From assembly GCA_006384855.1 (NCBI GenBank), contig VCJN01000215.1, forward strand, positions 18,971 to 82,970: a stretch of DNA of 64,000 nucleotides, written 5' to 3'. The notes beneath the pieces are model-generated. The model was not told the DNA's origin. It saw nothing but the letters and a program-made list of their open reading frames with translations, and ran no database searches. Source of the DNA: Tetraselmis striata (Eukaryota > Chlorophyta > Chlorodendrophyceae > Chlorodendrales > Chlorodendraceae). Position numbers and translations under genes: made by a program. This document shows, one piece after another, positions 2,871 to 64,000 of the stretch. Positions within the stretch are counted from its first letter, which is position 1. Each line of letters opens with the position of its first letter.

Positions 2871-2905
2871 TCCGTGTGCCCCACCCAATGACATTGCGCC
2901 CGACC

Positions 2906-3757: not shown

Positions 3758-3803
3758 GACGCGGGGACGGGGGGGGGGGGGGGGGGGAATTCGTGCGTTT
3801 CGT

Positions 3804-6080: not shown

Positions 6081-6085
6081 ATGGC

Positions 6086-6369: not shown

Positions 6370-6387
6370 AGGCGAAACGATTGTGGC

Positions 6388-18500: not shown

Positions 18501-18531
<31 letters not shown>

Positions 18532-19165: not shown

Positions 19166-19211
19166 CGGTGTGGCGCGCCGCGCCGACAGCTGTTGCCCCG
19201 ACTCTGACTAT

Positions 19212-22665: not shown

Positions 22666-22683
22666 GCCACAATCGTTTCGCCT

Positions 22684-22970: not shown

Positions 22971-22985
22971 ATGGCGCTGTGAGCG

Positions 22986-24565: not shown

Positions 24566-24953
24566 CCCCGCCTCTTTCCGCGCAGGTCCTACGTTCCATT
24601 GTATGTATATACATACGTACATGTACTGCTCCGAAACCAGCCCAAACTTAATGAGTGCACAAGTGTAAATGCGGGGGGGGGGGGGGGGGTGGGGGGGGGG
24701 TGTGTGGCGGCGGGGCATCCACTCACACATACCCCGGCGATGCATGACAGATATTACATGCCGTGGCGGGTCGGCGGGCCGACCCGGCGGGCCGACCCGG
24801 CGGGGGGGGGGGGGGGGGGGGGGCGTCTATTCAACTACACGTGCGACAGTGTCGTTTCGTGGAGCAGTATATGTGCCCGGCCTCATTTATACCGCCCCCT
24901 ACCTGCGCTGCATGGTCCACCCCTACGAATTACTTAGCACAAACCGCCATTAC
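24566..24953. other. Non-coding part of copy B with two poly-G tracts
   Basis: Matches 4,116-4,490. The G tracts at about 24,673-24,700 and 24,801-24,823 are longer than the corresponding C tracts of copy A. No gene is seen. Confidence 0.45.
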
Positions 24954-25256
24954 TTAATAGGAACCTAGCACAGCCAGGCTTATATGCCCGCTTTGCCGAT
25001 CAACTTCTACGCACTTTCCGTCCCTTAACCGCCGGACATGGGGGTTAAGCCGCCAGCCTCGGCAGTTGCTTAGCCAGACTTGGCATCCCGTACCGTGTCC
25101 ATGGCTTCGCAGCTCTGCCGCCGGCACACGCCGAGTCCGGCGCTTGCTGCCGCGGGGTTGCGCACGCATGCACGCACGGTAATACGCCGCCGACGCCGCC
25201 ACGCTTATTTCCACCACCTTCGCCAGCCGCAGCTTCGCACGCCTTTCCGCCGACAT
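24954..25256 (-). CDS. Small basic protein or N-terminal exon (copy B)
   Basis: The counterpart of 3,804-4,115, starting MSAERRAKLRLAKVVEISVA. It lacks some of the GCGTCGG units of copy A and keeps the basic block RGSKRRTRRVPAAELRS. No family is recognised. Confidence 0.35.
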   Translation of the reverse strand: MSAERRAKLRLAKVVEISVAASAAYYRACMRAQPRGSKRRTRRVPAAELRSHGHGTGCQVWLSNCRGWRLNPHVRRLRDGKCVEVDRQSGHISLAVLGSY

Positions 25257-25290
25257 ACGAAACGCACGAATCCCCCCCCGTCCCCGCGTC

Positions 25291-26186
25291 ATGTATATTA
25301 TATTCGAGGCGACTATGCGGGGCGCAGCACACGCCGCGGCGTGGGTCGGCGGAGCGACAGGCGGCGGGAGCCCTAATGGCCGGGCAGTATCCACACCCAC
25401 ACAGGCACCGCCGCTCACCTCCGACGCGGATGAACCGCCTCCCAAAGGAAACATGCCGGTTGGTGGTAAGCCCAGCAGGCGTGCGTGGGGTGCCGGCGCC
25501 GGTACTGGTGCGACGGAGCTGTCGCGTCAGGAACCGCACCGCATGTGGAGCAACACATGGCGGTGCCGGCCCCACCTATGTCTAGGGCCACCTCCTCACA
25601 ACACCCCGCCACGACGGCGTCGGCCACCGCCGACGGCGCCGTTGCGGGGGGGGACGCCCTGCCAGGCGACGATGATGCGCCTGGTGCGCCGGGTCAGGAG
25701 GCGGAGGAGGCCGTGGTCGAGGCGACTGATCGGGCTGAGGGGGTTGTCGAGGCGAGCGAGGCTGCGCTCGCGCCACCCGCCCCGCAGCCACCTGCGGGAC
25801 ATGCCGACTTGCTCGTCGCCATGTTGACCGGAGCACTACGAGCAGTGGCGGGAGGCGGCCACATGCACTATCATGTGCGTGTCCTGGCCGGACGCCCGTC
25901 ATGCGTGGACTGCGGCCAACGGACGGACTGGGAGTGTTGATGCGACGGCACCCCGGCTTTGTGCGGCCCCAAGTACCCATGCATGGCGACCCATCAGCGG
26001 GCAGTCCCCTGCCCGACCACGGCCACGAAGAGGGCGGAGTTCCGCCATGTCAGGGACGCGTTCCACGACGCGACTCGCGCCGCCGTGTGTGAGGCTTCCG
26101 AGAAGGCACGCGCGGCTGGTAGGGTGCGCAGGGTGAGGCGGCGGACGGCCCAGGAGCTGAAGGAGAGCGAGACATGCCGTCAGTGA
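25291..26186 (+). pseudogene. Zinc-ribbon protein of the CACTG transposon, with UGA (copy B)
   Basis: The counterpart of 2,906-3,757. The acidic block and CVDCGQRTDWEC are intact, but the next codon, TGC (Cys) in copy A, is TGA here (about 25,938). The frame continues CDGTPALCGPKYPCMATHQR and runs to the same end (LKESETCRQ, stop by 26,186). The 5' third differs from copy A by an extra stretch around 25,325-25,370 that changes the frame. As read it is a pseudogene unless the UGA is decoded. Confidence 0.5.
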
Positions 26187-26224
26187 GGTCGGGCGCAATG
26201 TCATTGGGTGGGGCACACGGACGT

Positions 26225-26363
26225 GTAACACTTGCACTTTGCGCGTACTGCTGGGTTACATCCAAGCGGTGTCACACTATGCAACCGGAAAGGCTGCGTT
26301 GCTACTGCAAACGATGCTACGCCTCACTCGGTAGCAACCGCTGCCCCGCCTATCCCACAGCCG

Positions 26364-26400
<37 letters not shown>

Positions 26401-26575
26401 GCGCACCGTCCTGCGACCTCGCGTGGATCCCCGCCACCAGCAGCTTGCACTTGCACTTTGCGCGTACTGCTGGGTTACATCCAGGCGGCGTCACACCGGA
26501 AAGGCTGCGTTGCTACTGCAAACGATGCTACGCCTCACTCGGTAGCAACCGCTGCCCCGCCCATCCCACTCGGGA
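26225..26575. repeat. Tandem repeat of about 200 bp with poly-C (copy B)
   Basis: Two units of the repeat found three times at 2,360-2,870. The poly-C tract at about 26,370-26,398 sits where copy A has poly-G on the other strand. Confidence 0.7.
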
Positions 26576-27174
26576 TGCTGAGAGCAGCTAAAGGGCACCG
26601 GGGGCGGGGCAAGAGGGAGCAGGGCCAATGATTGTGGAAGAGCGGGGACCCGCTTGCATGCCATCGTATTATATCTTGCACAATATCTGTTGCTGCACTC
26701 ATATCTCACATCACTAGCTTAGCTATAGTGATTCCCCCCCCCCCCCCCCCCCCCCCCCCCCCGCACCGCGGACGCACAAGCCTGGGTATACGCATCAACT
26801 GCCCGCCGGGATGAGAAACTGGTATTGGTAGTGTGTCTGTGGGGTGGAGGGGGGGCAAAAGAGCTGCCAATTGCTGCCAAGCTGGTGCGTTACATTGGGG
26901 CAGGCGCTGGGCAGACAATTGGGGCTCGCTTCAGAGCATTGTCTAGTGCCTATGCGGCTGCGCCGCCTCCGCCGCATGCAGACTCTCCGAGCTCACCAGC
27001 ACCGCCACCTCAGTCATGCGGCCCTGCATCCCGCAGCCCGCCGCCGCCAGCCAGATCAGAGGTATCCAGAAGCCAGTGCTGGGGTTGTTGCGGCATGACC
27101 GCATAGTTTTCAGCGCCTGCCGTCCACAACTTGTAATGCATCCCTTTCCGCCGATTCCGCTGTATGCGCTGTCT
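26576..27174. other. Segment present in copy B and absent from copy A
   Basis: About 600 bp lie between the tandem repeat and the minisatellite, with a poly-C tract at about 26,736-26,762. In copy A the flanks are joined directly (CCCACTCG|CGTTGGCGCC in this orientation). On the minus strand the minisatellite frame runs through it (FWIPLIWLAAAGCGMQGRMT, then LVSSESLHAAEAAQPHRH) and stops near 26,943, so it may be the original 3' exon, deleted from copy A by repeat-mediated recombination. An insertion in copy B is the alternative. Confidence 0.45.
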
Positions 27175-27667
27175 TGGCGCCGCGCTGCCCCGGCCGCCGC
27201 GCCTTGGCGCCGCGCTGCCCCGGCCGCCGCGCCTTGGCGCCGCGCTGCCCCGGCCGCCGCGCGTTGGCGCCGCGCTGCCCCGGCCGCCGCGCCTTGGCGC
27301 CGCGCTGCCCCGGCCGCCGCGCCTTGGCGCCGCGCTGCCCCGGCCGCCGCGCCTTGGCGCCGCGCTGCCCCGGCCGCCGCGCGTTGGCGCCGCGCTGCCC
27401 CGGCCGCCGCGCGTTGGCGCCGCGCTGCCCCGGCCGCCGCGCCTTGGCGCCGCGCTGCCCCGGCCGCCGCGCCTTGGCGCCGCGCTGCCCCGGCCGCCGC
27501 GCGTTGGCGCCGCGCTGCCCCGGCCGCCGCGCCTTGGCGCCGCGCTGCCCCGGCCGCCGCGCCTTGGCGCCGCGCTGCCCCGGCCGCCGCGCGTTGGCGC
27601 CGCGCTGCCCCGGCCGCCGCGCCTTGGCGCCGCGCTGCCCCGGCCGCCGCGCCTTGGCGCCGCGCTG
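27175..27667. repeat. 30-bp coding minisatellite, about sixteen units (copy B)
   Basis: The units (GGCGCCGCGCTGCCCCGGCC plus GCCGCGCCTT) are almost perfect. One position alternates C or G (GCGCCTT or GCGCGTT) in the order C C G C C C G G C C G C C G C C. On the minus strand it encodes RRQGAAAGAA or RRQRAAAGAA. Copy A has only about two units. Confidence 0.9.
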
Positions 27668-28030
27668 GGTATCGAGTCCTCCCCTCCCTAGTGAGCGCGT
27701 CCACCTGCGCCTTGCGCTCGGGGCCGTCCTCCTCCGTCACCACATTCTGCAACCCCCACCGCGTGACGAACCACGCAGCTCCTTGCAGGCGCTTGTACAT
27801 GTGCCCAAGCACCGCCAGTCGTGACACCGAACGCACCACCGCTGGGGACGCGAGCTCCTTCTCGGGCATGATCGCCTTCACCCGGGCCTCCTCGAGGAGC
27901 GGACCGGCGTTAAGAATGGAAAACGTTTCCATGTGGTGCAAGCAGTCCTCCATGACCCAGCCGGGCTGCACCGTCACCTTGCCTGACCCTGCAGTCATGG
28001 AGGGGAATGCCGTCACGCCCACGCCCACGC
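27668..28030 (-). CDS. Conserved hypothetical C-terminal segment (copy B)
   Basis: The counterpart of 1,958-2,440 up to the repeat (SGWVMEDCLHHMETFSILNA, then VVTEEDGPERKAQVDALTRE). It is nearly identical to copy A (LEEAR for FEEAR) and continues into the long 10-residue repeat at 27,175-27,667. Confidence 0.4.
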
Positions 28031-28069
28031 CCACGCCCGGGGGGGGGGGGGGGGGGGGGGGGGGAGGGG

Positions 28070-28465
28070 TTTACCTTTCGATTCTTGGACACTGCAAACG
28101 AAGGGCGCAACCCGCGTTCAAAGTTGCTGGGTATCGGGACTAAAGCCTGGCGCCGGTCTTCCTGCTTCATAGCTCGGAATCCAATGTGGCCCTGCACGGT
28201 GACAAATTTCCTCCAGAAGTCCCTTCCCAAGCCAAAAAAAAACAGGTGGAACGGCGCGAGGGGGAAGAGGTTGACCATGCTGACATAGCCCCGGACCACA
28301 TGCACATGGCACACGCCATGGCAGCCAGTGTTCTGCTTGGCCTCCGCCAGCCGGGTTGTGTTGACCGCACGCCGGGCAAGGTGCGTGATTCACTGGACAA
28401 GTCATCGCCTTCATGGACGGTTACCAAGCGAGCCTCCCCGTCCGCATCCACAGGGGGGTGCTCCT
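28070..28465 (-). CDS. Conserved hypothetical segment (copy B)
   Basis: The counterpart of 1,497-1,881, with frames EHPPVDADGEARLVTVHEGD, then NTTRLAEAKQNTGCHGVCHV, then DFWRKFVTVQGHIGFRAMKQ. The same frame changes occur at the same places as in copy A, which favours introns over independent decay. Confidence 0.4.
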
Positions 28466-28580
28466 GGGCAGCCGCCATAGCCTCCACAACCTGCCACGCC
28501 GACCGAGCGGGTGCGTGTGATTCCATACAACCGCAGTTGAGTGGTGCCACCAGCACGCAGGCCGGGCCCACTCACCTCTG

Positions 28581-28797
28581 AACGCAGAAGGCCCACAATG
28601 CCCCCGTCCTCGAAAACAGCGCGCCACTGGGTCGCCCCGCCGTAGTCCTCCAACACCCACTCGGTAACGACGCCGGTTATCACGCCGTAGTGCCATACTC
28701 CCCGGAACTTCTTGGCGATGACCTTCATGTAGAAGTCGCCGGAATCGCCTTTCCATATCACGCCCTCATCGCGGGTTCCACGCCCGCCGGCGGCCAC
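28581..28797 (-). CDS. Tudor-like domain segment without the palindromic insertion (copy B)
   Basis: Reads KVIAKKFRGVWHYGVITGVV, then TEWVLEDYGGATQWRAVFED, ending LLRSE at a GTGAGT donor. This is the uninterrupted version of the domain at 1,121-1,381 and shows the empty site of the 34-bp palindrome. Confidence 0.5.
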
Positions 28798-29168
28798 GCA
28801 GGCGCGTCGATGTCCATACCGTCTTCGCCAACGGGGTCCTCCCCCACGCCCATCACATCGTCCACCTTCGAGCCGCCGTCGTCCGAGACCGGCGCCGGCG
28901 GGCCGTTTCCGACGGCTGCAGCTACTCCTGCTGCCGCCCCTGTTGTTGTTGCTGCTGCTGCTGCCGCCCCTGCTGCTGCTGCTTGTGATAAGGCGGCCTT
29001 GCGGCGCAACTTAGCCGCACGCTTCAACGAGTGGCTACAGTTCGGGAATTTTAGGAAGTGCCGCTCTCGCGCCATCTTCTCACAAGTGCCCGTCACGTTG
29101 CCCCGGCAGTGCTTGCATGAGTACACGCCATCCTTCGACACACTCGCTATCCATCCCTTTGCCGGCAT
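28758..29168 (-). CDS. BED-like zinc-finger protein (copy B)
   Basis: The counterpart of 747-1,160, starting MPAKGWIASVSKDG with the same Cys-x2-Cys and His-x5-Cys ligands. CEKMARERH replaces CDKMARERH, and the poly-Ala/Thr tract is shorter. A poly-G tract (29,192-29,212) marks the upstream, possibly intronic, poly-pyrimidine in gene orientation. Confidence 0.55.
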   Translation of the reverse strand: MPAKGWIASVSKDGVYSCKHCRGNVTGTCEKMARERHFLKFPNCSHSLKRAAKLRRKAALSQAAAAGAAAAAATTTGAAAGVAAAVGNGPPAPVSDDGGSKVDDVMGVGEDPVGEDGMDIDAPAWPPAGVEPAMRA

Positions 29169-29781
29169 GCCTGCTGCCGCGCGCGAGGGGCGGGGGGGGG
29201 GGGGGGGGGGGGTTGAGAGTTGGGGTGGATGTAACCCACCACCGGCAGGCAACACAGATGCGAGTGCGCGGCTGTCCGCGCTTGATTCAACGGTGAGCGG
29301 CGGTGACCGTGAGGCGACCCCATACTTCATGCGCGTGCTGGGGCGTTACACAATCATCAGCAGTTAGGGCGGCTGCATTAAAACGCGCACCTACGAACAC
29401 CACCTACCGCCTACCACCTACCGTACCACCTACATCCGCCCACACCTCCGCCCGTCGTGCCGCACATCGCGGCACACCGCGGGGTCAGCGGTCAGCGATG
29501 TGCGGTCAGCGATGTGCGGCGATGTGCAATGAGTGCGTACATCCGCCTGTACTTAGCCCGGGTGCTCCGCGTCGGAGGGCGACACGCGAGCCCGCGTGCG
29601 CATATCAATTTGATGAAATTATGGAAACGAGAAATTCATATAGTACTTTACAGGTCGCGCGCGATAGTCGTCGCTACTGGGTATGAAATCCACGTCCCTC
29701 GTCCGTCCCGTATCGTCCCCGTATGTCGTCGTTCGTCACCAGTAGGGCACATTTACGTCACATCTGAATCTCACAGTGCGA

Positions 29782-45265: not shown

Positions 45266-48133
45266 TCAAAAGAGACCCCTAGATAGCACCCCTGCGACCG
45301 CTGCGAGGACGGTGGCATCCACCGCCTCCGCAAAGGCCTCCACCTCGGACAGAAGGCAATTGCGGAGCCAATACCCCGCCATGTGTTGCATGCAATGCTT
45401 GAGCAGGGCCCATGCGTGGTGATGCAAGGCGTGGGTGTACCGACGGTTGGGCTTAGCAGATAGAAGCTTGCTCAGGCTAGCGTCCACCTCCTCTCGTAGC
45501 TCCTCCGCCTTGCCGCGCATGTACGCCTGCACATACTCAGGCGATCCGAGCGGCACGTTGAGGACCGCGATGCCGTGATGGCCATCTAGCTCGGGCCACT
45601 CGATGTCGGCCGGAGCCTTACGCCGCGCGGCCTCCATGTCTGCGCTGTACGCCTGCATCTTGTCGAAGCGCACCTCAAGCCCCACGGACGCCTTGATGGA
45701 CGTGCGGAAGGCGTGAAGAGCCGGCCAAACGTGCTCCGGAAGGCCCACCAAAAATCCATCGTCGGCGTTGAAGCGCGCCGCCCCGTCATTGACCTCCAAT
45801 GTGGTATCACACTGCTGCACCTCGGGGTGAATCGCGACGCAAAAGGAAGTCGTGGCCAAATGTGCGCCCTGTTGCACGCCGTCCTCCGACCGCAGAGGGG
45901 GGGACCGGTCGTCCACGACCAGATACGAATCCGTGGAGAGGGAGGCTAGGAGCGCAGGGATGACAGGGTGTAGTGGAGAGCAATCGATGTGGCGTTGAAT
46001 GATGGTGCGGCGCCATGCCTCGTTGTAAGCGTTGCGAAGGTCTGTGTGGACGATGACAGCACGTGGGCCAAGCTTCTCGGCGATGAGCCGGACGCCGTGG
46101 ATGAGCATAGAGTCGCCCGCGGGAATGCCAACTCCGAGCTGAGATGGAGCAAGCACCGACACGTATGCCTCCTTCATGTTGTCCACAACTGCCCGCTCCG
46201 CTGCGCGCCGCTCCGCCTCCCCGACTGCCACAGGCCGCACGTCCGGGGCCCTCCCCTCGCCTAGCTTCTTGACAGGTGCCACGAGCCTAGCATAGGCGAA
46301 GAGCCGGTCGAACCACCCGGGCAAGCGACCTTGGAGGTACATGGAGGCAACCTCCGACATGGCGCGGACTGCCGCATGCCCGGACGCCGGGGCGTATTCG
46401 CCCACCAAGCAGCGGAGATACTCGTTGCGCATGCCTGAGGGCCCCGCCGCCACGTGCTGCTTGAGCTGTTGGTACGGCACGCGCATGTCCACCGTCATGG
46501 CGGCCTCGTCCGCCGGAATGTCATACGCGGCGTCTGGGATCGGGTGGCTACGGGACGGGTGCTTTTCGCGCAGCTGGACGAGGATAGCAGGATCGGACAA
46601 GTCGCCCATACCCTTAGAAGTCAGTCGGCCCGCCGCTCGGGAGAGCTCTCCGTCCTCCACCAACGCCACAACGGTGTCCGCGGTGCCCACGAGCAGCGCC
46701 GCAAAGAGATCGGCATCCGTTCGACGCTGACGGGCGTGTCCGGCGTAGAACGCCTCAGTGTGGGCGTCGTCCCATGAGCGCACGAGTTCGGTCATGCGCC
46801 TCTCCGCGAAAGCGCGGAAGCGCCACGCCAAGGCTTGTAGCCGCCGCCGCCCGCCTCGGCTTGGGGCCCTAAGCAACAATTGCGGCAGCAGGTACTTCCA
46901 CTTCAACGCCCTATCCAACACCACGGGGTCACCGGCCTCCACCGCCGCCACCACCCGCTCATTCACGCAGCGTTGTGCCTCCGCCCACGCTTCTTGAAAG
47001 TCAATAGGCACCGCCGTCTCCATGGACATCTCCGCCGGCATGTGCACCATGTCCACGTCGGAGAGGTGGTCCACCGCACCCCACCCCACCCCGTCGCCGG
47101 CTGGAGATGGGCGAGTAGGGGGGGGCGAATACCGAGCCCGTGAGGCTTGGCTACCGGGGTGGCCGGCCGGTGCACCCACCTCTGGCAGCGTGGGGGCAAC
47201 AACCGGGGGCGCTGCGACGCCCCGGAACGCAGCGACGGACGGCAATGTGGGCGACGGCAGCACTGACGATTGTCCAGCTCCACCGGCGCGGCGCGCCCCC
47301 CGACGGCGGTGCCGCTCGGCCAGCGCGGCGCGCGCCTTGGCTAGCCACGCGGCGGCGACCTCAGTGAAAGCCACCACGTCGGCCGGGTGGTGCCTGACGC
47401 GGGCGGGTTGGAGCGACATGGCTGCGGCGTCAGTCCTCGGCGCCCACGCGGCGCCCGCGGCGACGCCGGCGACTGAAAACGCGTCGGCGACTGTCCAAGC
47501 CGCTGCCGGCGCTACGCCCCGCCGCGCCGGCCCGCTGTCGTGTAGCCTGGAATGCAGACGGGCGAGAGCATCGAGGCCGGTGAGCGCCAGGCCGCGGTTG
47601 CCGCCGCGCGGCCGCGGCCGCGGCCGCTCGGAGACTTCCTGGCCGGTCGGAGCGCCGTCGTGATCGCGCAGTGACGCGCCGGGCCCCGAAATACTGCTGA
47701 AAGTACTACGGCGAGGCGACGACACAGGCGAGGCAGCGCGCGCGCCGGCCGTACCTGCCGCGCCCGTCGCGGACTCGGGACTCGACGACCGGCTCACCGC
47801 CTGGGCGTACGTGGGAGCCGGCGGGGCGGCAGCCGCGGGCGGGCTCGGCCTCGGCTGGGTGGTGTCGGGTGCACTGCCGCTGGACGGTGTTGCCGCGGGC
47901 GACGCTCCCTCCGCACGCGATGCGCCGGGGCTGACTGATATACTGGACGATGTACTGGGGGGCGGCGGCGACCCGGGGTCAACGGCGCGTTCTGCCGCAC
48001 CATGGGCGGAAGGCGCAGACATCGCGCGGCGCCCCGCCGGATACAAGCGACCCGCCACAGCCCGGGCATAACTGTGACGTCGCGTGGGAGGGGGTTGAGG
48101 GCAGCTACGCGATCTAGGCGGTGGGTGAGGCAT
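45266..48133 (-). pseudogene. LINE-like reverse transcriptase with long N-terminal region
   Basis: An open minus frame of 955 codons starts MPHPPPRSRSCPQPPPTRRH. The first 330 residues are Pro/Ala/Ser-rich and disordered. A helical region follows (VLDRALKWKYLLPQLLLRAP). RT motifs come next: GPSGMRNEYLRCLV, APDVRPVAVGEAERRAAERA, SQLGVGIPAGDSMLIHGVRL, IVHTDLRNAYNEAWRRTI with the first catalytic Asp, DGVQQGAHLATTSFCVA, and ARFNADDGFLVG, where A-D-D stands for the usual Y-x-D-D. The domain is followed, out of frame, by the endonuclease-like part. No apurinic endonuclease is seen at the N-terminus. The ORF itself is intact, but the element's 3' half is broken. Confidence 0.7.
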
Positions 48134-48496
48134 GGCGACACACGGCCCCGGGGCGCCTCCGGGGCCGCTGGGTGGGTGGTCGGTGGTAGTCTCCTCCGGG
48201 AGGTATAGGTATTGGTAGTTGTAAAAAAAGATAAGAAAACCGGTACCTGTAACTGAGCAAGCAAGGTTTTCTCATATACGAAATTGCAGTTTATTTTACC
48301 GTTTTGGGAATGTGCGTATCATGCTGATGCATGTAGTCGCTATTTAGCGACTACATTAATAATAAATCCCTTATCAAGTCGCGGAAAGACTTCCAGAAAG
48401 ATAGTCGCTAATAGCTGACGTGCCTGTTATGTTTATTACAAGTAGTCGCTAATTCGGGTTACTTAGCATGCGCGGAACAGCGCAAAAGTGCGGTGC
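48134..48496. other. Spacer with repeated TAGTCGCTA motifs
   Basis: GTAGTCGCTATTTAGCGACTAC at about 48,332 is an inverted pair. ATAGTCGCTAATAGC and GTAGTCGCTAATTCG follow at about 48,402 and 48,443. The same 9-mer or its inverse recurs elsewhere in the window. No gene is seen. Confidence 0.45.
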
Positions 48497-55985: not shown

Positions 55986-56061
55986 CTCTCTCCCCCCTTA
56001 AGCACAAGCGTCCTCGCTGTGCAGGTGTCACCGAACTACAGGAAACTACAGTCTTGGTCTT

Positions 56062-56505
56062 TGTTAATGTTGACACAAGGCGGCTGCAGCTGACAGACAA
56101 GCAGCAGCAGGTGAGTGTGAGTGCACAAGACGGCAACACGACCTTGCATGTCGAGTGAGGAGCTGGTGGAAAGAACGAAGTAATTTACAAAGGCTAGGTT
56201 TCTCCAACTTGGCTGGTGGGCATTCTTGCAACATGCCTAGCCGGTCTGTGGCATCCTGGTCACTGAAATGGCCTCTAGTAGTTACCGTTGTACCTTGGTT
56301 CTGGTACGTTTGATGTAACTTTTCTAGAACTTTATGCTTTGTTGGCGTGGACATGAATGGTCAACAGTTACTTGAGCCTGTTGCCCATCTGGGCGCAATC
56401 CTAAATGTACCCAGGTGCAGTACCACTGTGGCAGCCTGTTAGAGCAGCAAGAGCAGCTACAAGTCATAGCAGTTCAGCGCTCTCATCAGCATATTAGTAT
56501 CAACA
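56062..56505 (-). repeat. 3' LTR of the methyltransferase Copia element
   Basis: In element orientation it runs TGTTGATACTAATATG to GTCAACATTAACA. It is 444 bp against 433 bp for the 5' LTR. The end of the pol ORF (stop at 56,457) lies inside it. Confidence 0.9.
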
Positions 56506-59500
56506 CCCCTCCTCGATGAACTGCATGACCTTTGCAGCAAATTGGCGAAGAGAGGGTTGCGTAGAGGCTTGGTGAACATGTCGGCGGCCATCTCCCTGGT
56601 TTCCATGTAGTGGATACTGATGTCGCCATTCTTGCATGCCTCGCGCACGAAGTGGTAGCGGATGTCCATGTGCTTGGTACGACTGGATGTCACGTCATTG
56701 GTGGAGATAGCGATGCATGCTTGATTGTCCTCTCCGATAGGGGTAGGGCCGTCAAGTGCGAGTCCCAGCTCCTGCAGCATCTGCCTGATGAACATCACCT
56801 CCTGAGTGGCGATTGCCATGGCGACGTATTCCGCCTCCGCAGTGGATAGGGTGACGATAGACTGCAGCAGCGACTTGTAGCTCACTGCTCCTCCGCAGAT
56901 GGTGAAGTAGAATCCGCAGGTGACCTTGCCTTGGCTGGTCATCGTGGCGTGGTTTGAGTCAGACCATCCAACTAGCTGCAGCACGTCGCTCCCGCCAAAG
57001 GTGATGCCTCGATCAGGGTACTTCTTGAGGTAGCGCAAAACATGTTTTGCATCTTCCATGTGTGCGCGAGTTGGGGCTGACATAGATCTGCACATGCGGT
57101 TGACGGCCTCAGTGATGTCAGGCATGGTGGCAGTGGAGGCGTACAGCAGTCCGCCGATGAGGCTCCTGAAAATGCTTGGATCGTCTAGCGCAGGTGAGTC
57201 GCGAGCATCGTTGCCGACGCTGGGAATATCAGCAGGGTTGCAGTCTGTCATGTTGAAACGCTCCAGCAGGTCGGTCACGTACTTCCCTTGATGTATCTTG
57301 ATAGTGCCCGCGTCCCGGTCGCGCTCCACCTTCATGCCTAGAATCCAGGTGCATGCTCCCGGGTCCTTGATGTCCAACTCGTCAGCGAGGTTGCGCTTGA
57401 ACTGAACCACCCAGGTGGTGCAGTTGCTGCAGATCAGGATGTCGTCCACGTAGATCGCCACAATGCTGAAGGTGTTGCCGGATCGGTAAATGTAGGCGCC
57501 GGGGTCGGTCTTGAGCTGAGCAAATCCCTGCCCCAGCATGTGCTCGCGCAGCTTGAGGTACCAATCGTGCGGCGCCTGCTTGAGGCCATAGACGCTCTTC
57601 TTCAGGTGGTAGACCAGCTCCTCTCCGTTGGGGCCTTGTTGTTCAAACTCAGGGGCTTGTGTCATGTAGATATCCTCCTCCAGGTCTGCGTAGAGGAACG
57701 CACAGTCGATGTCGGTCTGCTCGAGCTCCATGCCGTAATGGGCTGCCAGGGAAAATATGATGCGTAGCGTGGTGAACTTCACGGTAGGTGCGAAGGTGTC
57801 GTTGTAGTCGATGCCATGCACTTGGCTGAAGCCCTTGGCCACCAGTCGCGCCTTGTAGCGTGCTAGGCTGCCGTCGGCGTTGCGCTTGGTCTTGAATACC
57901 CACTTGCACTTGACTGCCTTCCTGCCGGATGGTAGGGTCACCAGTACCCACGTCTTCCTGGCTATGAGGGATCGGTATTCTACCCACATCGCCTCCAGCC
58001 AATGTGGTGCATCTGGACCGGCTAGGGCTTCCGTGTGCGTCTGCGGATCGCCGGGTGCCTCGCCTGCGAGATGGGCATGATCTCGATTGCTCCATGCCAG
58101 GTGGCGGGCGCTGGCGGGGTTGCGGTAGTCGATGCGCGGGCGGCTTGATCGGGACAAGTCGGCAGGCTGTGGCGGTCCGCTGGACGTCGGAGCGGTTGGC
58201 ACTGTAGTCCGTGCTGGATCAGGGACGGCAGGAGTAGGAGGCTGGGGAGTCACTGCTGGTGGCTGCGGGGCACCGGCTCCGGCTGGTTCGGGCGTCTCAT
58301 CTCGCTCAGGCTGGGCGTTTGGGAAGAAATCTTCGTCGCTGTCGCTGGCATCACTGTCACTGTCGGGACGGCGCAGTGGGCGGGATGCCCCTCCTGAGGT
58401 CGATGCCCCTCCTGAGGTAGATGCCCCTTCTGAAGTTGATGCATGCCCTTCCTGCCACATCATCCCCTCTTGTGTGGCATGCCGCCACACATCAGTGGCA
58501 GGTGAAGGGGTAGCCGGCATGACCCAATGCTCGTTGAACGTGACGTTGCGCGTTGCCACGGTGGTGTTGGTATCAGGAAAATAGACGAGGTAGCAGTCGT
58601 CTGCATGCAAAGCGTCGTAGCCCACGAATATTCCGAGTCGAGCAGAGGGGTCCGACTTGATGCGTTGAGCGCGCTGTTGATGAACGTACGCTGAACAACC
58701 GAACATGCGCAAATGGGAGAGATCAGGGGCGGCTGCGGCGACGATGGACATGGGTGCAGCGCCGGTGCTCCTGGGGGTGCGGTTGTGCAGGTAGGCAGCG
58801 GTAGCCATGGCAAACTGCCAGTACGGGGTAGGAAGGCCATCATAGGCCAGCATGCAGCGGCCCCAGGTCCACAAGGTGCGCAAGGTACGCTCCACCAGCC
58901 CATTCTGAAACTGGATGTAGGGAGCAGAATACTCACGTCGCAGTGCATGATCCTCACACTCAGCGATGAAGGCGCGACTGTGGAACACGCTGTCGTTGTC
59001 GAGACTTAGGGCACGGACGGTGTGCCCCATGCTGCGGGCGATCGCCAGGACGCGGCGCAGGCAGTCGACAGCGGCGGCGCGGGAGGGGACAAATAGAATG
59101 CAACACCAACTGCTGGCGTAGTCAACAGCTCCAAACACGTAGGAGTTGCCTTGCAGCGATCTGGTGGGGTTCTCCCAGAAGTCGCAGGCCAGCATGTGGG
59201 ATGGTGCATCTGGTCGAGGATGACAGGTGCCTGGTTGCGGGGCTGCAATAGCCTTGATCATGGCGCAGGCGTGGCAGAACGGTAGACGCGTCTGCGTGGA
59301 GTAGTCAACATGCGTGCCTGCGGTGCCGCGCAGAGCGTCCATGGCGCGCTCATGGATGTGACCGAGCCTGGCATGCCACCGATACTTGGAGTCTTGCTTC
59401 ACTGCAGAGACGAGGGAGATGCCCGCTGGGGGTCCAGACCGCTCAATGCGGCTGTGCAGCACGTACAGGCGGTCGACGCTCTCCACAGGGAAGACGGTAT

Positions 59501-60716
59501 CGCCCACTTCGACGCGGTTGCCGCGGGAGTTGATGACGATCTGGAGATGGGCATTCTGCTCCTCAGCTTGCCGGCTACTAAAGAGACGATAGATCTTATT
59601 GTCTGAGCGGAATGCGAGATTTGGCACGTGTAACACATTGCGAAGAACGACGGTCTGAGCAGTGCCGTTGTCGTCGGGAATGGTGGTTCGCACAGTGCCG
59701 ATGCCGACGGCTCGCGCACACAGTCCGTGAATCCAGCGCGGGGAAATGGGCTTGTAGTCCGCGAAGTCAGAGATGTTGGCCACCATGTGAGAGGTGGCGC
59801 CGGTGTCAAGCACCCACGACTGCGGGAACGACTTGATGCTGGGTAGCGCAACTTCTGACGCACTGGCTTTAACGATGGCAAGTGCCGGCCACTTGCCGAT
59901 GTTGGCATCGATGCAGGCGCCCAGCATCATGCGGCGCTGATCAAGCGAGAGACTAGGGATGTCCAATGTGTCAGCCGGGAAGCCCATGCTCACAGCCACG
60001 ATGTCCAAACATGGGGTTTCAGGCTCGCCGTCGAGTAGAAGCATGCTTTTGCCGGGCACGGCAGGTGCGTCTGTCGTGGCGGTGGTCATGCGGTAGGCGT
60101 AACTGCCCCGGCGAGAGACGAACTTCGAGAAGAGGCCACGCGGCAGATGAGACAGAGCGGTCCACCTTGGAGAGAAGCCATGTGTGGTAAGTAGCTCCCC
60201 AACAGACAGGGGTGCCCGCTGGGCTTGCTGATAGTGAGCGCGAAAGAAATCGATGTCACGGATGTTGCTCCATACCACTGTATCGCGTCTGGCTGTTGAC
60301 CCAAGCTCGTGCGCTCGGACCAGAATTGGCGTGCCCATAGCCTCAACGATCTCATGGCAGCGCGCAGCACCGGGGACATTCTCGAGAATGAAGTTGACGC
60401 CACCAGACTGCATCGACGCCAGACGCTTGACGACATCGATGGAACCGTACAGCCCACCAGCACGCGGGTCGGCGAGCATGAGGCGATGAGTGTTGGCGGC
60501 TGAGAACGGGGCGCAGGGCGGTGAGGCAATCACTAGGTCGACATGCCCAAGGGACGCCAGTTCGTCGTCAGTGATGGACTGGACATCAGGGTTGATGCGG
60601 CCGTAGGAGTCGTGGATGGCGCTGGCAGGGATCTGATGAGGATGGCGGGCTTGCATGCGCTCCTGCTCCACCCGGCCGGCCTTGCGCACGTGCTTGTCGG
60701 TCTCGCAGCAGATCAT
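56457..60716 (-). CDS. Copia pol polyprotein: C5-methyltransferase, protease, integrase, RT, RNase H
   Basis: A 1,419-codon frame. Residues 1-285 are a cytosine-C5 methyltransferase: motif IV LVIASPPCAPFSAAN with the catalytic Cys at 68, motif VI FILENVPG, motif VIII GSTARRDTVVWSN, and the C-terminal AVSMGFPADTLD and RRMMLGACIDANIG. The protease DTG is at 304-306 (SWVLDTGATSHMV). The integrase has the HHCC finger (WHARLGHIHERA, then FCHACAMIK) and the acids in ACDFWENP, LSLDNDSVFHS and NGLVERTLRTL. RT has KARLVAKGFSQVHGIDY and YVDD at 1,089-1,092. RNase H follows (VGWSDSNHATM, then STAEAEYVAM). All catalytic motifs look intact. The same frame continues upstream (60,759-62,021) past two UGA codons and 11 sense codons. 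The last residues are encoded by the LTR. Confidence 0.92.
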   Translation of the reverse strand: MICCETDKHVRKAGRVEQERMQARHPHQIPASAIHDSYGRINPDVQSITDDELASLGHVDLVIASPPCAPFSAANTHRLMLADPRAGGLYGSIDVVKRLASMQSGGVNFILENVPGAARCHEIVEAMGTPILVRAHELGSTARRDTVVWSNIRDIDFFRAHYQQAQRAPLSVGELLTTHGFSPRWTALSHLPRGLFSKFVSRRGSYAYRMTTATTDAPAVPGKSMLLLDGEPETPCLDIVAVSMGFPADTLDIPSLSLDQRRMMLGACIDANIGKWPALAIVKASASEVALPSIKSFPQSWVLDTGATSHMVANISDFADYKPISPRWIHGLCARAVGIGTVRTTIPDDNGTAQTVVLRNVLHVPNLAFRSDNKIYRLFSSRQAEEQNAHLQIVINSRGNRVEVGDTVFPVESVDRLYVLHSRIERSGPPAGISLVSAVKQDSKYRWHARLGHIHERAMDALRGTAGTHVDYSTQTRLPFCHACAMIKAIAAPQPGTCHPRPDAPSHMLACDFWENPTRSLQGNSYVFGAVDYASSWCCILFVPSRAAAVDCLRRVLAIARSMGHTVRALSLDNDSVFHSRAFIAECEDHALRREYSAPYIQFQNGLVERTLRTLWTWGRCMLAYDGLPTPYWQFAMATAAYLHNRTPRSTGAAPMSIVAAAAPDLSHLRMFGCSAYVHQQRAQRIKSDPSARLGIFVGYDALHADDCYLVYFPDTNTTVATRNVTFNEHWVMPATPSPATDVWRHATQEGMMWQEGHASTSEGASTSGGASTSGGASRPLRRPDSDSDASDSDEDFFPNAQPERDETPEPAGAGAPQPPAVTPQPPTPAVPDPARTTVPTAPTSSGPPQPADLSRSSRPRIDYRNPASARHLAWSNRDHAHLAGEAPGDPQTHTEALAGPDAPHWLEAMWVEYRSLIARKTWVLVTLPSGRKAVKCKWVFKTKRNADGSLARYKARLVAKGFSQVHGIDYNDTFAPTVKFTTLRIIFSLAAHYGMELEQTDIDCAFLYADLEEDIYMTQAPEFEQQGPNGEELVYHLKKSVYGLKQAPHDWYLKLREHMLGQGFAQLKTDPGAYIYRSGNTFSIVAIYVDDILICSNCTTWVVQFKRNLADELDIKDPGACTWILGMKVERDRDAGTIKIHQGKYVTDLLERFNMTDCNPADIPSVGNDARDSPALDDPSIFRSLIGGLLYASTATMPDITEAVNRMCRSMSAPTRAHMEDAKHVLRYLKKYPDRGITFGGSDVLQLVGWSDSNHATMTSQGKVTCGFYFTICGGAVSYKSLLQSIVTLSTAEAEYVAMAIATQEVMFIRQMLQELGLALDGPTPIGEDNQACIAISTNDVTSSRTKHMDIRYHFVREACKNGDISIHYMETREMAADMFTKPLRNPLFANLLQRSCSSSRRGVDTNMLMRALNCYDL
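56506..56514 (-). promoter_or_regulatory. Polypurine tract of the Copia element
   Basis: GAGGAGGGG on the minus strand lies directly upstream of the 3' LTR, the usual primer for plus-strand DNA synthesis. Confidence 0.7.
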
Positions 60717-60758
60717 GTCGCCAATGGGGACACCAGCTTCGGTGTGTGTCCTTCATCA
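60717..60758 (-). other. Two tandem in-frame UGA codons between the two pol-frame ORFs
   Basis: The upstream ORF ends SIAEG at TGA (60,756-60,758), immediately followed by a second TGA (60,753-60,755). Eleven sense codons (RTHTEAGVPIG plus Asp) then lead to the methionine at 60,716. All are in one frame, and the break separates methyltransferase motif I from the rest of the domain. Confidence 0.85.
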
Positions 60759-62021
60759 ACCCTCCGCGATGGAGTGAAGGGCGCCAGCACGCAGTGACAA
60801 AATCCGAATCGGCTTGCCCTTGGTGAAAGCAGCAGGGTCGGCCTTGACATCAGTAACATACGGAAGGGGCTGGAACGGCGTCGGCGAGCGGGCAAGGGCG
60901 GCGTGAGGCAATGGCGGTGTGGAGGCGATGTCCGGCAGCGTCTGGGCGGCGAACGCAGCAGTATATCCACATGGATGGAAGAAGGGAACGGTCTTGGTAG
61001 GAGTGAGGTAGGCCGGGTAGCACACACCCGGGCGATGAGACGCAGTGTGGCGCCAGTGGAACGCGCGCTCCAGAGCGTCATGCTCGTACTCGCTGTCACT
61101 CTCGCCATTGCCGTCATCACCACGGACATCCACATCGCTAGCGGTATCACAGAAGTTGTCGACGACAGCAGTCATCATGATCAGTTGATCAATGGCATCC
61201 GGTGTAGACGGAGGGACGGCGTCCGGGTAGTCAGCGGCATGATGTGTGGGAGGTCGCTCCTGTGGCGGGCTCCAGTCACACGGTGTGCAGCTGCCGCCAG
61301 ACGAGCTGTCAGTCACGGCGCCTGGCATGATGTTGTCGCTCGAGGCATCGTAATCACCTTCGCTGATGCGTAGGAAGGCGCATGCAGCCTGGCGCGCCGC
61401 ATGGTTGCGGCGGCACACATCATGGTTGCGGCGGCGGCGCAGATGGCGGTTGCGGCGATGAGGTGACTTGGGCTCGGCGTCGGGATCCTCAGCGGACGCC
61501 TCCAGCGCGTCAGGCTCCGCGGCAGGCTCGCCTGACTCCTCGGGCTCCTTAGACTCATGACACGCCGCAGCCGACTCCACTGGCTCCGCGGGCGCCTTAG
61601 ACTCATCAGTCTCCTGCTCAGCACCCATGGCAGGCTCCGCAAGTGGCATGATGGATGTTACCACCACATCAGCCTCGGGGAGCATGGGACGCTTGCCATC
61701 CGCAATATCCGCCCGGAGCTTGTAGCACTCCCCGCGCAGGTGAGAGCGGCTCCAACAGAAGGTGCAATGGGTGATCACGTTGAAGTCGGTGGTGAACGGA
61801 CGCCAGACGTTCTGCTGATGTGGGGCAGCTGGGCAGGCTGAGGTGAGAGGTCGCCACAAAAGCAAATTCCTTGGCCACGTGGGCATGCTCCTTGTCGCCA
61901 GCGGCGTCAGGGCGGCCGCGGCCATCTCCTGCAGGTGGGTTGCGATCAGGGTGAACACGGCCCGCGGCCTTGTCCCGGGCGTAGCTTCGGCAGTCACGCT
62001 TCGGGTGGCCAGGGATGCCAC
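60756..62021 (-). CDS. Copia gag-pol linker with second zinc knuckle and methyltransferase motif I
   Basis: The same frame as the pol ORF. Near its start CTFCWSRSHLRGEC is a second C-x2-C-x4-H-x4-C knuckle. An acidic stretch follows (ESKAPAEPVESAAACHESKE), then RRNRHLRRRRNHDVCRRNH, another acidic stretch, and finally GKPIRILSLRAGALHSIAEG, which aligns with motif I (the cofactor-binding strand and Gly-rich turn) of DNMT3-like enzymes, although the usual Phe-x-Gly-x-Gly is changed to R-A-G-A-L. It overlaps the gag ORF in a different frame, so a frameshift near 61,840 is needed to join gag to pol. Confidence 0.65.
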   Translation of the reverse strand: MASLATRSVTAEATPGTRPRAVFTLIATHLQEMAAAALTPLATRSMPTWPRNLLLWRPLTSACPAAPHQQNVWRPFTTDFNVITHCTFCWSRSHLRGECYKLRADIADGKRPMLPEADVVVTSIMPLAEPAMGAEQETDESKAPAEPVESAAACHESKEPEESGEPAAEPDALEASAEDPDAEPKSPHRRNRHLRRRRNHDVCRRNHAARQAACAFLRISEGDYDASSDNIMPGAVTDSSSGGSCTPCDWSPPQERPPTHHAADYPDAVPPSTPDAIDQLIMMTAVVDNFCDTASDVDVRGDDGNGESDSEYEHDALERAFHWRHTASHRPGVCYPAYLTPTKTVPFFHPCGYTAAFAAQTLPDIASTPPLPHAALARSPTPFQPLPYVTDVKADPAAFTKGKPIRILSLRAGALHSIAEG

Positions 62022-62889
62022 AGTAATAGCAGCGGCGTTTGTTGACGCCGGGACAGTCTGACGGCTGCGCAGACGAGTGGCCAGCGCCGCCGGACGCCAA
62101 GGGAGACATCATGGCGGCGAGCTTGGACATGGTTGCATCTTCAGCGCCGGGTTGAGGAGGAGAGAGCTGCTCTTTGAGTCTTGCGACCAGGGCAGTGAGA
62201 TCAGCCTCACTCAGTTTGCCATCCTTCACGGCGCTCGGCTGCGACGGGGGCGGCGCGGCCAGGAATGCTGCAGCAGTTGACTCGGCGGCAGGCGCACGGG
62301 AGGTGAGACGGACAGCCTTCGCTGCCTCAAGGAAGGTGTCAGGCCCGCTGCGAAGGAGGTGATCGTACTCAGACTTGAAGTCAGGTTGACGCAGACCATC
62401 ACGGAAGTGGTTGATCAGCTTGGCGTCAGTGACAATCGTGCCGGCTCTGTCAAGCATCAGGCGGGCAAGCATCAGGCGGGCGATGAACGATTCGAGGTCC
62501 TCGTGAGGAGATTGCTTGGTAGACAGGGAGCCCTCAAGGGTGGAGATGTAGGTCTCGGGTGGCGGAGCAAAAGCGGCCTTGAGGGCTTGCAGGGCGTGGT
62601 AGCCCTTACGGGTGTTGTAACGGTAGCTGACGTCCAGGAGGTGAGTCGCCGCGGTCCTGCCAGGAAGCAGGTTGAGCAACAGGCGGAAGACTTGGGCGTG
62701 GCAGTCCTCAGAGGTTGTGGTGTCATCAGCGACAAAGATATTTGAATACCCCTCCTCGCTGGTGAGACGACTCTCAAGCTGAAACTGCCAAAGCAGCCAT
62801 GAGGCAGCATCAAAATCACCTGGGCGAGCGAAGGACTCATAGTCCTTGGTCTTCAAGCGCGCATGGGACATGGTAGCAAGGATTCCCAC
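61840..62889 (-). CDS. Copia gag protein
   Basis: The frame opens at MGILATMSHARLKTKDYE; the first Met is 134 bp inside the element from the 5' LTR. It has the Copia gag fold pattern (SWLLWQFQLESRLTSEEGYS, then YNTRKGYHALQALKAAFAPP, SFIARLMLARLMLDRAGTIV and LINHFRDGLRQPDF). After an Ala-rich linker comes a CCHC zinc knuckle, RCYYCGIPGHPKRDC, which packages RNA. The gag frame runs on to 61,669, but the residues after about 61,840 are better explained by the overlapping pol frame. Duplicated ARLMLARLM is a small tandem repeat. Confidence 0.8.
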
Positions 62890-62999
62890 GAGGGGTGACG
62901 GAGGACGCCAGAGGACGACGAGGATGAGACGAGCGGAGAAACCCAGAGGTTGACAAGCCTAGGTGGAAGCGAAGACGAAACAACGATGAGTGGCGCCGG

Positions 63000-63023
63000 G
63001 ATAGCGCGATCAGGCCCATAACC
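63000..63023 (-). promoter_or_regulatory. Primer-binding site, half-tRNA(Met) type
   Basis: Directly after the 5' LTR the minus strand reads GGTTATGGGCCTGATCGCGC. GGTTATGGGCC is complementary to the anticodon arm of initiator-type tRNA-Met, the half-tRNA priming mode known for Copia elements. Confidence 0.65.
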
Positions 63024-63456
63024 TGTTAATGTTGACACAAGGCGGTTGCAGCTGACATACAAGCAGCAGCAGGTGAGTGTCAGTGCACAAGACGGCAACA
63101 CGACCTTGCAGGTCGAGTGAGGAGCTGGTGGGAAGAACGAAGTAATTTACAAAGGCTAGGTTTCTCCAACTTGGCTGGTGGGCATGTTTGCAACATGCCT
63201 AGCCGGTCTGTGGCATCCTGGCCACTGAATTGGCCTCTAGTAGTTACCGTTGTACCTTGGTTCTGGTACGTTTGATGTAACTTTTCTAGCTATATGCTTT
63301 GTTGGCGTGGACATGAATGGTCAACAGTTACTTGAGCATGTTGCCCATCTGGGCGCAATCCTACATGTACCCAGGTGCAGTACCACTGTGGCAGCCTGTT
63401 AGAGCAGCTACAAGTCATAGCAGTTCAGCGCTCTCATCAGCATATTAGTATCAACA
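63024..63456 (-). repeat. 5' LTR of the methyltransferase Copia element
   Basis: 433 bp, with the same termini as 56,062-56,505. The GTCTT duplication follows at 63,457. Confidence 0.9.
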
Positions 63457-63551
63457 GTCTTGATCTTGAGGTCCATGCGGAAGGTACTCGGCTTGGGTAG
63501 CGATTCCGGAACCGAATGAAGTCTGGGCTCTCAGTAAACTGTCGGTATGGT

Positions 63552-64000
63552 TTAGACAAAAGGAAGGAACGGCCGGAAAATGTGCAAGTGCTTGACTCCG
63601 CGTAGGGGCTCCCAGGTGTCTTCGCTTGGTACGTTGTACGGGAACGCCCATCGCACTCGAAACAGTAGTCCAGTGCCATTGTTGTTGAAGGCAACGTCGA
63701 GTATGTCTTGAACATGGAATCGGTTTGCGTCATGGACAATCGGTACTCGTTCATACTTCGCCGGTTGGTCAGGGTCGTCATACAACTTCCCCAGCATACT
63801 CGCGTGCACCACGTCGTGAACTCGTACGCCCGCAGGTAGTTGCAATCGGAAAGCAACTGGTGAGATCTGCTATGTAATGACGAAGGGGCCCACGTAGCGA
63901 TCGCGTAGCTTAGCACAGGGTTGCTGAATAAACTTCAGATGAGACGCTTTCAGCTCAACTCTGTCGCCGGTCTTGAATGGTACGGGTAGTCGTTTACGAT
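63552..64000 (-). pseudogene. Ty3/Gypsy integrase C-terminus with chromodomain, partial
   Basis: From the window edge the minus frame reads FKTGDRVELKASHLKFIQQP, then LRDRYVGPFVIT, a TAG at 63,870-63,872, and goes on PVAFRLQLPAGVRVHDVVHA. The chromodomain follows (HVQDILDVAFNNNGTGLLFR, then VRWAFPYNVPSEDTWEP) and a stop at 63,552. The D-R-V-x-L and L-x-L-P-x-x-x-x-x-H-x-V-x-H-x-S motifs are those of Gypsy integrases, and the chromodomain directs insertion to certain chromatin. The nonsense codon marks this copy as inactive. The Copia element sits between this end and the Gypsy 3' LTR. Confidence 0.85.

Follow-up and report, generated by a model that had tools for sequence, protein, structure and literature searches.

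A dead Copia retrotransposon copy in Tetraselmis striata whose intact relatives encode a C5-methyltransferase domain between Gag and protease

The element of the window

The window analysed here is a stretch of 64,000 nucleotides from the green alga Tetraselmis striata (contig VCJN01000215.1). It contains a full-length but broken Copia long terminal repeat (LTR) retrotransposon on the minus strand (56062-63456; Table 1), a dead copy of an element whose intact relatives encode a single polyprotein in the order Gag, methyltransferase, protease (PR), integrase (IN), reverse transcriptase (RT) and RNase H (RH). The succession of protease, integrase, RVT_2-type reverse transcriptase and RNase H is that of the Copia superfamily (Ty1/copia, Pseudoviridae), and the ends bear the corresponding TG...CA LTRs, primer binding site, polypurine tract and 5-bp target duplication. 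The motif that follows the 5' LTR is presumably the complement of the initiator tRNA-Met anticodon loop, and we take WSDSNHA, STAEAEY and EDNQACI to be Copia RNase H motifs. All the bounds drawn in the first-pass annotation (LTRs, primer site, polypurine tract and target duplication) were located, the LTRs being equal at 421 of 433 aligned bases and GTCTT standing on both sides. The single frame in which that annotation had seen methyltransferase motifs IV, VI, VIII, MGFP and X ahead of the protease, integrase, reverse transcriptase and RNase H was also read directly: it covers 56457-60716 (minus strand, 1419 amino acids from its ATG) and holds motifs II, IV, VI, VIII and X before the other domains. 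The methyltransferase extends beyond the span assigned to it (60050..60810): it opens with motif I at about 60809 and closes with motif X at 59889.

The window copy is inactivated, and it is broken in at least two ways. Motif I has the same phase as motifs II to X but is cut off from them by two in-frame TGA codons, and gag lies in a different phase from the remainder of the element. The gag frame has a zinc knuckle CYYCGIPGHPKRDC at 61990-62031 and scores 18.8 bits against PF00098 (E = 0.0017), under the cut-off of 20.8. The frame that carries motif I (60756-62021) had no match in a Pfam search. The gag frame is 98% like residues 1-221 of the T. striata protein P0002, and another protein, P0001, spans the gag-to-methyltransferase regions as one chain, with 94% identity to the window over 909 columns, stops counted. 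Because of the two stops inside the methyltransferase and the break of the gag frame, the window copy cannot make the whole protein and yields no complete enzyme.

Table 1 Features of the Copia element in the window, in element order
Feature	Position	Strand	Basis
GTCTT target-site duplication, copy flanking the 5' LTR	63457..63461	.	identical to 56057-56061
5' LTR, 433 bp, TG...CA ends	63024..63456	-	LTR-pair alignment
Primer binding site GGTTATGGGCC, directly after 5' LTR	63013..63023	-	read directly
gag frame, starts GTG; MSHARLK... from 62871	61669..62889	-	frame reading
Second frame: acidic linker, second CX2CX4HX4C knuckle (61725-61766), methyltransferase motif I (60759-60809)	60756..62021	-	frame reading
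Interrupted C5-cytosine methyltransferase domain (motifs I-X)	59889..60809	-	PF00145 marginal; alignment A2 with families A-D
Methyltransferase motif I IRILSLRAGALHSIAEG	60759..60809	-	upstream of two TGA
Two consecutive in-frame TGA stops between motifs I and II	60753..60758	-	absent from P0001 and 2147-aa family A frames
Motif IV SPPCAPFS, catalytic Cys	60501..60524	-	read directly; Cys in 40/40 distinct sequences
Motif VI LENVPG, catalytic Glu	60369..60386	-	read directly; 40 distinct sequences compared
Motif VIII ELGSTARRDTVVWSN	60264..60308	-	alignment A2 and direct reading
SMGFP, ahead of motif X	59976..59990	-	alignment A2 and direct reading
Motif X MLGACIDANIGKW	59889..59927	-	alignment A2 and direct reading
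Protease active site WVLDTGATSHMV, with DTGATSHM	59781..59816	-	direct reading; PF22936 Pol_BBD 2.3e-12
gag-pre-integrase, integrase core, SH3-like domains	58527..59468	-	PF13976 1.5e-5 (below cut-off), PF00665 1.3e-8, PF25597 9.6e-20
Copia-type reverse transcriptase RVT_2, YVDD at 57432-57452	57219..57956	-	PF07727 4e-66
RNase H motifs WSDSNHA, STAEAEY, EDNQACI	56712..56966	-	direct reading
Polypurine tract GAGGAGGGG, before 3' LTR	56506..56514	-	read directly
3' LTR, 444 bp	56062..56505	-	LTR-pair alignment
GTCTT target-site duplication, copy flanking the 3' LTR	56057..56061	.	identical to 63457-63461

Copies and related families in the genome

The genome of T. striata (224 Mb, 2903 contigs) was searched for relatives of the element; the counts of places and rows given below are lower bounds. 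With the methyltransferase piece of the window as query, 37 of 136 rows matched at 89% or more and correspond to at least 32 places, window included, which make up family A; at least 23 of these 32 cover the whole 289-residue query piece. P0001 as query gave 47 rows, of which at least seven match residues 1-1001 with a stop-free frame of 2147 amino acids and one more with a frame of 2144. Eight family A loci were retrieved in full: in six of them (L039-L043, L045) a frame of 2147 amino acids runs from stop to stop, L044 has one of 2144 and L046 is broken at 1255. The full reading of L040 gives Gag-methyltransferase-PR-IN-RT-RH, so that the arrangement first proposed from the broken copy, a C5-methyltransferase between gag and protease, is that of intact family A elements. 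The LTR pairs of L040, L041, L042, L045 (394 bp matched) and L046 are free of mismatches, L039 and L044 have one and L043 has two; 5-bp target duplications were found at L043 (AGAGG), L045 (GCGTT) and L046 (TGTCG). The proteins P0001-P0003 (jgi/Tetstr1) are the best matches to the element, at 96-97% identity over the aligned part, and P0001 has a 100% match in the genome. In the public gene model P0003 (jgi/Tetstr1/427508), part of the element is attached to a GidB rRNA methyltransferase, probably through a gene-model fusion.

The same fusion recurs in three further Copia families. Family B is split in B1 (L047, L048, L054, L058-L060) and B2 (L055, L061-L063), with a methyltransferase at 46-48% to family A in alignment A2, which covers families A-D. 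The full B1 frame of 2295 amino acids contains, in order, a zinc knuckle (3.2e-6), DNA_methylase (7e-12), integrase (2.3e-6, below the cut-off) and RVT_2 (1.4e-63). Its LTR pair has no mismatch at L048, and four mismatches and two gap positions at L047. Family C (L049, L050, L053) has a longest frame of 2164 amino acids and family D (L051, L052, L064) one of 2162; their methyltransferases are at 30-32% to family A in the same alignment and about 40% to each other, and their downstream pieces match RVT_2 (6.4e-51 and 2.5e-44). The mismatch-free LTR pairs indicate that family A, and family B at L048, moved recently. With dozens of relatives bearing the methyltransferase, some of them intact and recently moved, the domain looks like a kept part of these elements and not an accident.

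Two other families depart from this arrangement. The one copy of family E that was read (L067, G000:C1912:281400-282700) has a D-like methyltransferase that ends at about residue 205, has lost both the catalytic Cys and ENV, and is joined, by eye, to the Copia region between integrase and reverse transcriptase. In one genome search, much of the lower part of the rows consists of E-like matches (residues 1-205 at about 59-72%), which suggests, with one copy read, that family E is an amplified deletion derivative. Family G, likewise represented by one copy read (L070, G000:C2181:12400-18400), resembles the other Copia families in its Gag-PR-IN-RT-RH order, in a frame of 1561 amino acids, and in its RT-RH region (47-49% identity to A and B1). 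Unlike family A, which carries its methyltransferase between zinc knuckle and protease, this only G copy read has none there. In the genome search with the reverse transcriptase, 94 of 150 rows were of the G kind by identity (50-52% RT identity, many with frames of exactly 1561 amino acids); of the remainder, 34 rows belonged to family A and 22 to family B (57-65%).

Family F is of another type. At G000:C2687:12707-23194 (+), a single frame of 3505 amino acids runs, by coordinates, across the pieces L073-L072-L068-L071 and contains, in order, RVT_1 (5.9e-26), PCIF1_WW (3.2e-15), a C5-methyltransferase (3.2e-10) and RNase H (1.5e-11). An AP-endonuclease-like stretch lies upstream by eye only, the Pfam search there giving no match. 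Four places are related at 92-100% (C2687, C2172, C653 and C596). From its domains, F looks like an element of the long interspersed nuclear element (LINE) type with two nucleic-acid methyltransferase domains. The PCIF1 family carries out cap-adjacent N6-adenosine methylation of RNA with the catalytic motif NPPF; the PCIF1-like region of family F reads NPEY by eye.

Outside the genome, three homologue searches returned 13 proteins. Candidates had to share 5-residue words, which limits sensitivity, and one of the searches scored the 7996 word-richest candidates. Seven of the 13 are named T. striata (P0001-P0005, P0008, P0009). Two come from the source 'lgn', which is taken to be metagenomic: P0006 matches at 79% over 13% of the query, in the protease region, and P0007 at 58% over 64% of the query, in the methyltransferase region. 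These two suggest that an A-like element exists in another organism; the longest contig is 5001 in both cases, and one may guess that they lie on one contig. The remaining four (P0010-P0013) are distant ordinary methyltransferases (E = 1.1e-5 to 0.06). The window methyltransferase gave 3 and 27 pattern matches in viral_contigs and genome_contigs, respectively, none of which was confirmed as a relative. With profile A4, 25 loci of viral_contigs matched at 27-44%, in most cases across motifs IV to VIII; we take them to be ordinary viral C5-methyltransferases. The T. striata genome also contains six single-frame C5-methyltransferases of 325 amino acids (G000:C1993:505-1440, C776:80949-81884, C1647, C2337, C355, C1455) that, unlike the element domain, match the whole PF00145 profile (E = 3e-42 to 6e-40); they are possibly viral or host genes.

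The methyltransferase domain

The domain presents the C5-methyltransferase motifs IV (PxC), VI (ENV), VIII and X in that order. Its profile match, proposed as a check in the first-pass annotation, is marginal in family A and firm in families B to D. For PF00145 (cut-off 22 bits), the long frame of the window is below the cut-off (20.5 bits, E = 3.7e-4) and its methyltransferase piece cut out scores 23.8 bits (E = 3.6e-5); the L040 piece reaches 22.1 bits, P0001, P0002 and P0003 have 19.8, 19.2 and 17.2, and P0004 has no match to this profile. The NCBIfam dcm profile gives 23.2 bits in family A for a cut-off of 100.65, and no family A place is among the 123 rows of the genome-wide PF00145 search. 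The relatives are all above the PF00145 cut-off: B1 (L047, E = 3.5e-13, 50.1 bits), B2 (L055, 2.6e-9, 37.4 bits), C (L049, 9.9e-8, 32.2 bits), D (L051, 4.1e-10, 40.0 bits) and the LINE-type F (L068, 3.2e-10, 40.4 bits). Because relatives of the same architecture score so strongly, the family A domain is read as a real methyltransferase relative.

The marginal score of family A would fit a chance resemblance to C5-methyltransferases or a chimaera of the assembly, yet the probability of either is negligible. Chance is refuted by the score of family B, which has the same architecture in one frame, together with the recurrence of family A; a chimaera at the window locus is ruled out by the family A places and by the three further Copia families.

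Across the 11 rows of alignment A2, motif IV P-C-P-S, motif VI ENV, the R/T/W/N of motif VIII, MGF and the G-D-N of motif X are invariant. Conservation was also examined over 71 sources (70 loci and the window). In 59 of these, 230 or more model positions are covered by an open frame, which gives 40 distinct sequences. The 12 sources left out have a broken or partial methyltransferase (L033-L038, L066, L067), are downstream pieces (L056, L057) or filler (L069), or have no methyltransferase (L070). In this set, which is tilted to intact copies and in which several sources are one place fetched twice, all 40 distinct open-frame domains, which come from A-D and F, have the catalytic Cys, Glu and Asn, and 39 have the Arg of motif VIII.

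Searches of the PDB with single sequences gave DNMT3A as the best but weak match for family A (E = 0.025), M.HaeIII (2.8e-5) and DNMT2 (3.2e-4) for B1, M.HaeIII (0.0074) for C, M.HaeIII (1.2e-4) and DNMT3B (0.014) for D, and M.HhaI (0.0012) and DNMT3A (0.002) for F (residues 1-187, no single stretch passing). The profile search was led by M.HaeIII (1.6e-9), followed by DNMT2 (6fdf, 2.9e-7) and DNMT3A (3.3e-6), and kept the same leader once F was added (M.HaeIII 1.5e-9, DNMT2 9.1e-8, DNMT3A 1.7e-7). The profile matches span mainly motifs IV-VIII, and the methyltransferase could belong to DNMT3 or to another class. An AlphaFold2 model of P0001 built from the 7-row alignment A1 had a mean predicted local distance difference test (pLDDT) score of 27.7. 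The element domain is a relative of the C5-cytosine methyltransferases.

Selection and descent

The ratio of nonsynonymous to synonymous substitution rates (dN/dS) of the methyltransferase domain was estimated by the Nei-Gojobori method for pairs with dS < 1.6; these include one pair in A and pairs within B and C. In family B, the ratio is 0.17-0.19 between the B1 copies L047/L048/L054 and L058/L059 (L047-L058: 0.19, 38.5 synonymous and 24.5 nonsynonymous differences, P = 3e-9 against neutral site proportions), 0.24-0.30 between B1 copies and L060 (L047-L060: 0.24, P = 2e-5), 0.23-0.24 between L055/L061 and L062 (L055-L062: 0.24, P = 8e-6) and 0.29-0.31 between B1 and L063, where dS is about 1.5 and near saturation. 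The family A pair, L001 and the window copy, has 0.21 (P = 9e-4). These values are read as purifying selection on the methyltransferase between subfamilies, relaxed in single dead copies. That the domain belongs to the C5-methyltransferases and has been under such selection is, on this evidence, close to certain.

The methyltransferase tree was reconstructed from A, B, C, D, F and P0007, with the four distant methyltransferases as a thin outgroup. The element sequences and P0007 are separated from the four distant methyltransferases (100/100); A groups with P0007 (99/98), B1 with B2 (94/94), and A with B1 and B2 (89/98, and 96/97 in a second tree). The positions of C, D and F have no support, and a program warning indicated that long branches meet in this tree. 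The RT-RH tree has the topology (C,D) versus (G,(A,(B1,B2))), in which C and D were flagged as long branches. Both trees thus join A with B1 and B2, apart from C and D. G branches among carriers of the methyltransferase and, as the trees lack a sound root, this topology may reflect either a single old gain that G later lost or several separate gains. One scenario is that a single C5-methyltransferase lineage spread as a replication module through deep Copia lineages and the PCIF1-bearing LINE-type element, as part of a kit for marking cDNA, and was secondarily lost in G; it is put forward tentatively, being a doubtful proposition. If it were true, these elements would be equipped to modify their own complementary DNA (cDNA), perhaps also their RNA, during replication.

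Comparison with known systems

Retrotransposons that bear DNMTs are already known. They are reported in dinoflagellates (DIRS and LINE elements) and in a charophyte (Gypsy), as the first-pass annotation had stated (PMC5890265), and elements encoding DAM and DCM enzymes are reported among Gypsy and DIRS elements, green algae included (PMC6338049). The Tetraselmis families share with the cases described in 2018 by de Mendoza a DNMT in the coding frame of a retrotransposon, many copies and purifying selection. The closest counterpart is KnitGypsy-Dnmt3 of Klebsormidium nitens, an LTR-superfamily element of a green-lineage alga with a C5-methyltransferase in its polyprotein and a reported Ka/Ks < 0.2 (PMC5890265). 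That element has a Gypsy domain composition, DIRS-like repeats and the enzyme in its Pol frame (PMC5890265), whereas the Tetraselmis element is a Copia with ordinary LTRs, the enzyme between Gag and protease, and a chlorophyte host. SymbioDIRS-Dnmt3 and SymbioLINE-Dnmt of Symbiodinium are likewise many-copy, element-borne C5-methyltransferases under purifying selection, and the DIRS enzymes are CG-active in yeast; they belong to other retroelement classes, and the Copia elements of Symbiodinium are reported to lack any DNMT (PMC5890265).

A later study (PMC12344493, Mol Biol Evol 2025) states in one sentence that LTR Copia and DIRS elements harbour some members of DNMT3. Its proteomes come from EukProt, also the source of T. 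striata proteins matched here, but the sentence names no species, structure or family, Tetraselmis is absent from the main text, and the Copia statement is credited to the 2018 paper, whose LTR element is a Gypsy. In a literature search of partial coverage, no Copia element bearing a C5-methyltransferase was found described for Tetraselmis or any chlorophyte. What is new is therefore the Copia superfamily as described here, the chlorophyte host, the position between Gag and protease, and the radiation. Few retroelements are known to carry a DNA methyltransferase, and they now include Copia elements of a chlorophyte, in which the enzyme stands after Gag and ahead of the protease.

What the enzyme may do

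Its placement in Gag-Pol would bring the methyltransferase, packaged together with the reverse transcriptase, into the virus-like particle where the cDNA is made, either cut free or still joined to the nucleocapsid. There it could methylate the cDNA of the element itself, either ahead of integration or in its course, and fresh insertions would then bear the mark from the start. The likeliest gain would be either that the cDNA is disguised or protected, or that the element restrains its own expression and so spares the host. The element's own cDNA is the favored target because of the Gag-Pol placement, of selection, and of the precedent of SymbioDIRS-Dnmt3 enzymes, for which de novo CG methylation in yeast is reported and cDNA methylation was proposed (PMC5890265). 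We regard this target as about an even bet; a methyltransferase kept in the Copia polyprotein and marking the element's own cDNA has, taken as a whole, a probability of roughly 0.55. Tetraselmis astigmata is reported to have a DNMT5a and three Tetraselmis a DNMT6 transcript (PMC9998398), so that the host could perhaps maintain such marks.

Several observations weigh against this reading. Motif I in A-D departs from the canonical S-adenosylmethionine (SAM) motif FxGxG (SLCAGALHS, LCAGATFG, LCCGGTLS, PCHGPSAS) and is near canonical in F (LCAGIGTGLEALL); SAM binding is taken as likely. Some dN/dS values are higher: those within C range over 0.26-0.44 (L049-L053 at 0.44), those in B2 include L055-L063 (0.43), L061-L063 (0.41) and L062-L063 (0.67), and those in B1 L047-L054 (0.58) and L048-L054 (0.45); two very close pairs with 4 and 9 differences, L047-L048 (1.01) and L058-L059 (2.69), are uninformative. 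Family G spreads and its one copy read is free of the methyltransferase, which implies that the enzyme is not needed to spread in T. striata. Traces of methylation are weak: the observed/expected ratio of CpG is 0.97 in the window and 0.87 in its element, and, in loci including flanks, 0.84 in A, 0.84 in B1, 0.96 in C, 0.92 in D, 0.85 in the methyltransferase-free G, and 0.77 and 0.93 in the F pieces; the LTRs of the window copy differ by four transitions and eight transversions. The TpG/CpA ratio is 1.36 in A, 1.32 in G and 1.18 in the rest of the window. The composition bears no strong mark of copies that are methylated and decaying. Finally, the KnitGypsy and SymbioLINE enzymes had no de novo activity in yeast, a result called inconclusive there (PMC5890265).

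The odd motif I, together with the loss of Cys and ENV in the family E copy, would also suit a domain that has lost its enzyme function and serves as a structural or nucleic-acid-binding spacer. Such a spacer is very unlikely given the constancy of the catalytic residues among the 40 distinct domains and the dN/dS of about 0.2 between several subfamilies.

Alternatively, the target could be RNA, either the genomic RNA or the tRNA primer in the particle, modified in the manner of DNMT2, which would help packaging, priming or escape from RNA sensing. DNMT2 is matched by the profile at least as well as DNMT3A, family F joins a related methyltransferase and a PCIF1-like domain in one frame, and an RNA role was suggested for SymbioLINE-Dnmt, which gave no DNA methylation in yeast (PMC5890265). 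Nevertheless, the profile search was led by M.HaeIII, a DNA enzyme, the matches cover mainly motifs IV-VIII, and the PCIF1-like domain, read by eye, has NPEY at the expected NPPF, which makes an RNA target rather unlikely. Another possibility is that the targets are the host genome or the DNA of competitors such as rival elements and viruses, and that the enzyme shifts the epigenetic state or immunity of the host to the benefit of the element. The many methyltransferase copies in one genome would agree with this, and transposon methylases have been proposed as antiviral tools (PMC6338049). Yet CpG is not strongly depleted in the window and nothing seen in the protein indicates host targeting; this target seems unlikely. 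The marking of the element's own cDNA is retained as the preferred reading. As the methyltransferase-bearing A-D and the apparently methyltransferase-free G share one genome, with young copies of A, the role of the enzyme can be tested by comparing families within the same cells.

Other features of the window

A large inverted duplication occupies 159-6746 and 22313-29778, its arm pieces being mostly 95-99% complementary with about 15.6 kb between them; inside it are tandem repeats of about 370 bp (4603-5642, 23414-24450) and 30-bp repeats (27054-27773). Between the arms, 18285-20722 (+) matches RVT_1 (2.3e-13) and RT_RNaseH (3.3e-4, below the cut-off) and corresponds to another retroelement. 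An open frame of 1001 amino acids at 45269-48271 (-) has no Pfam match at E = 0.01. Just upstream of the Copia element, 63552-63845 (-) is chromodomain-like (PF00385, E = 0.0012, below the cut-off) and is perhaps the end of a Gypsy-type element.

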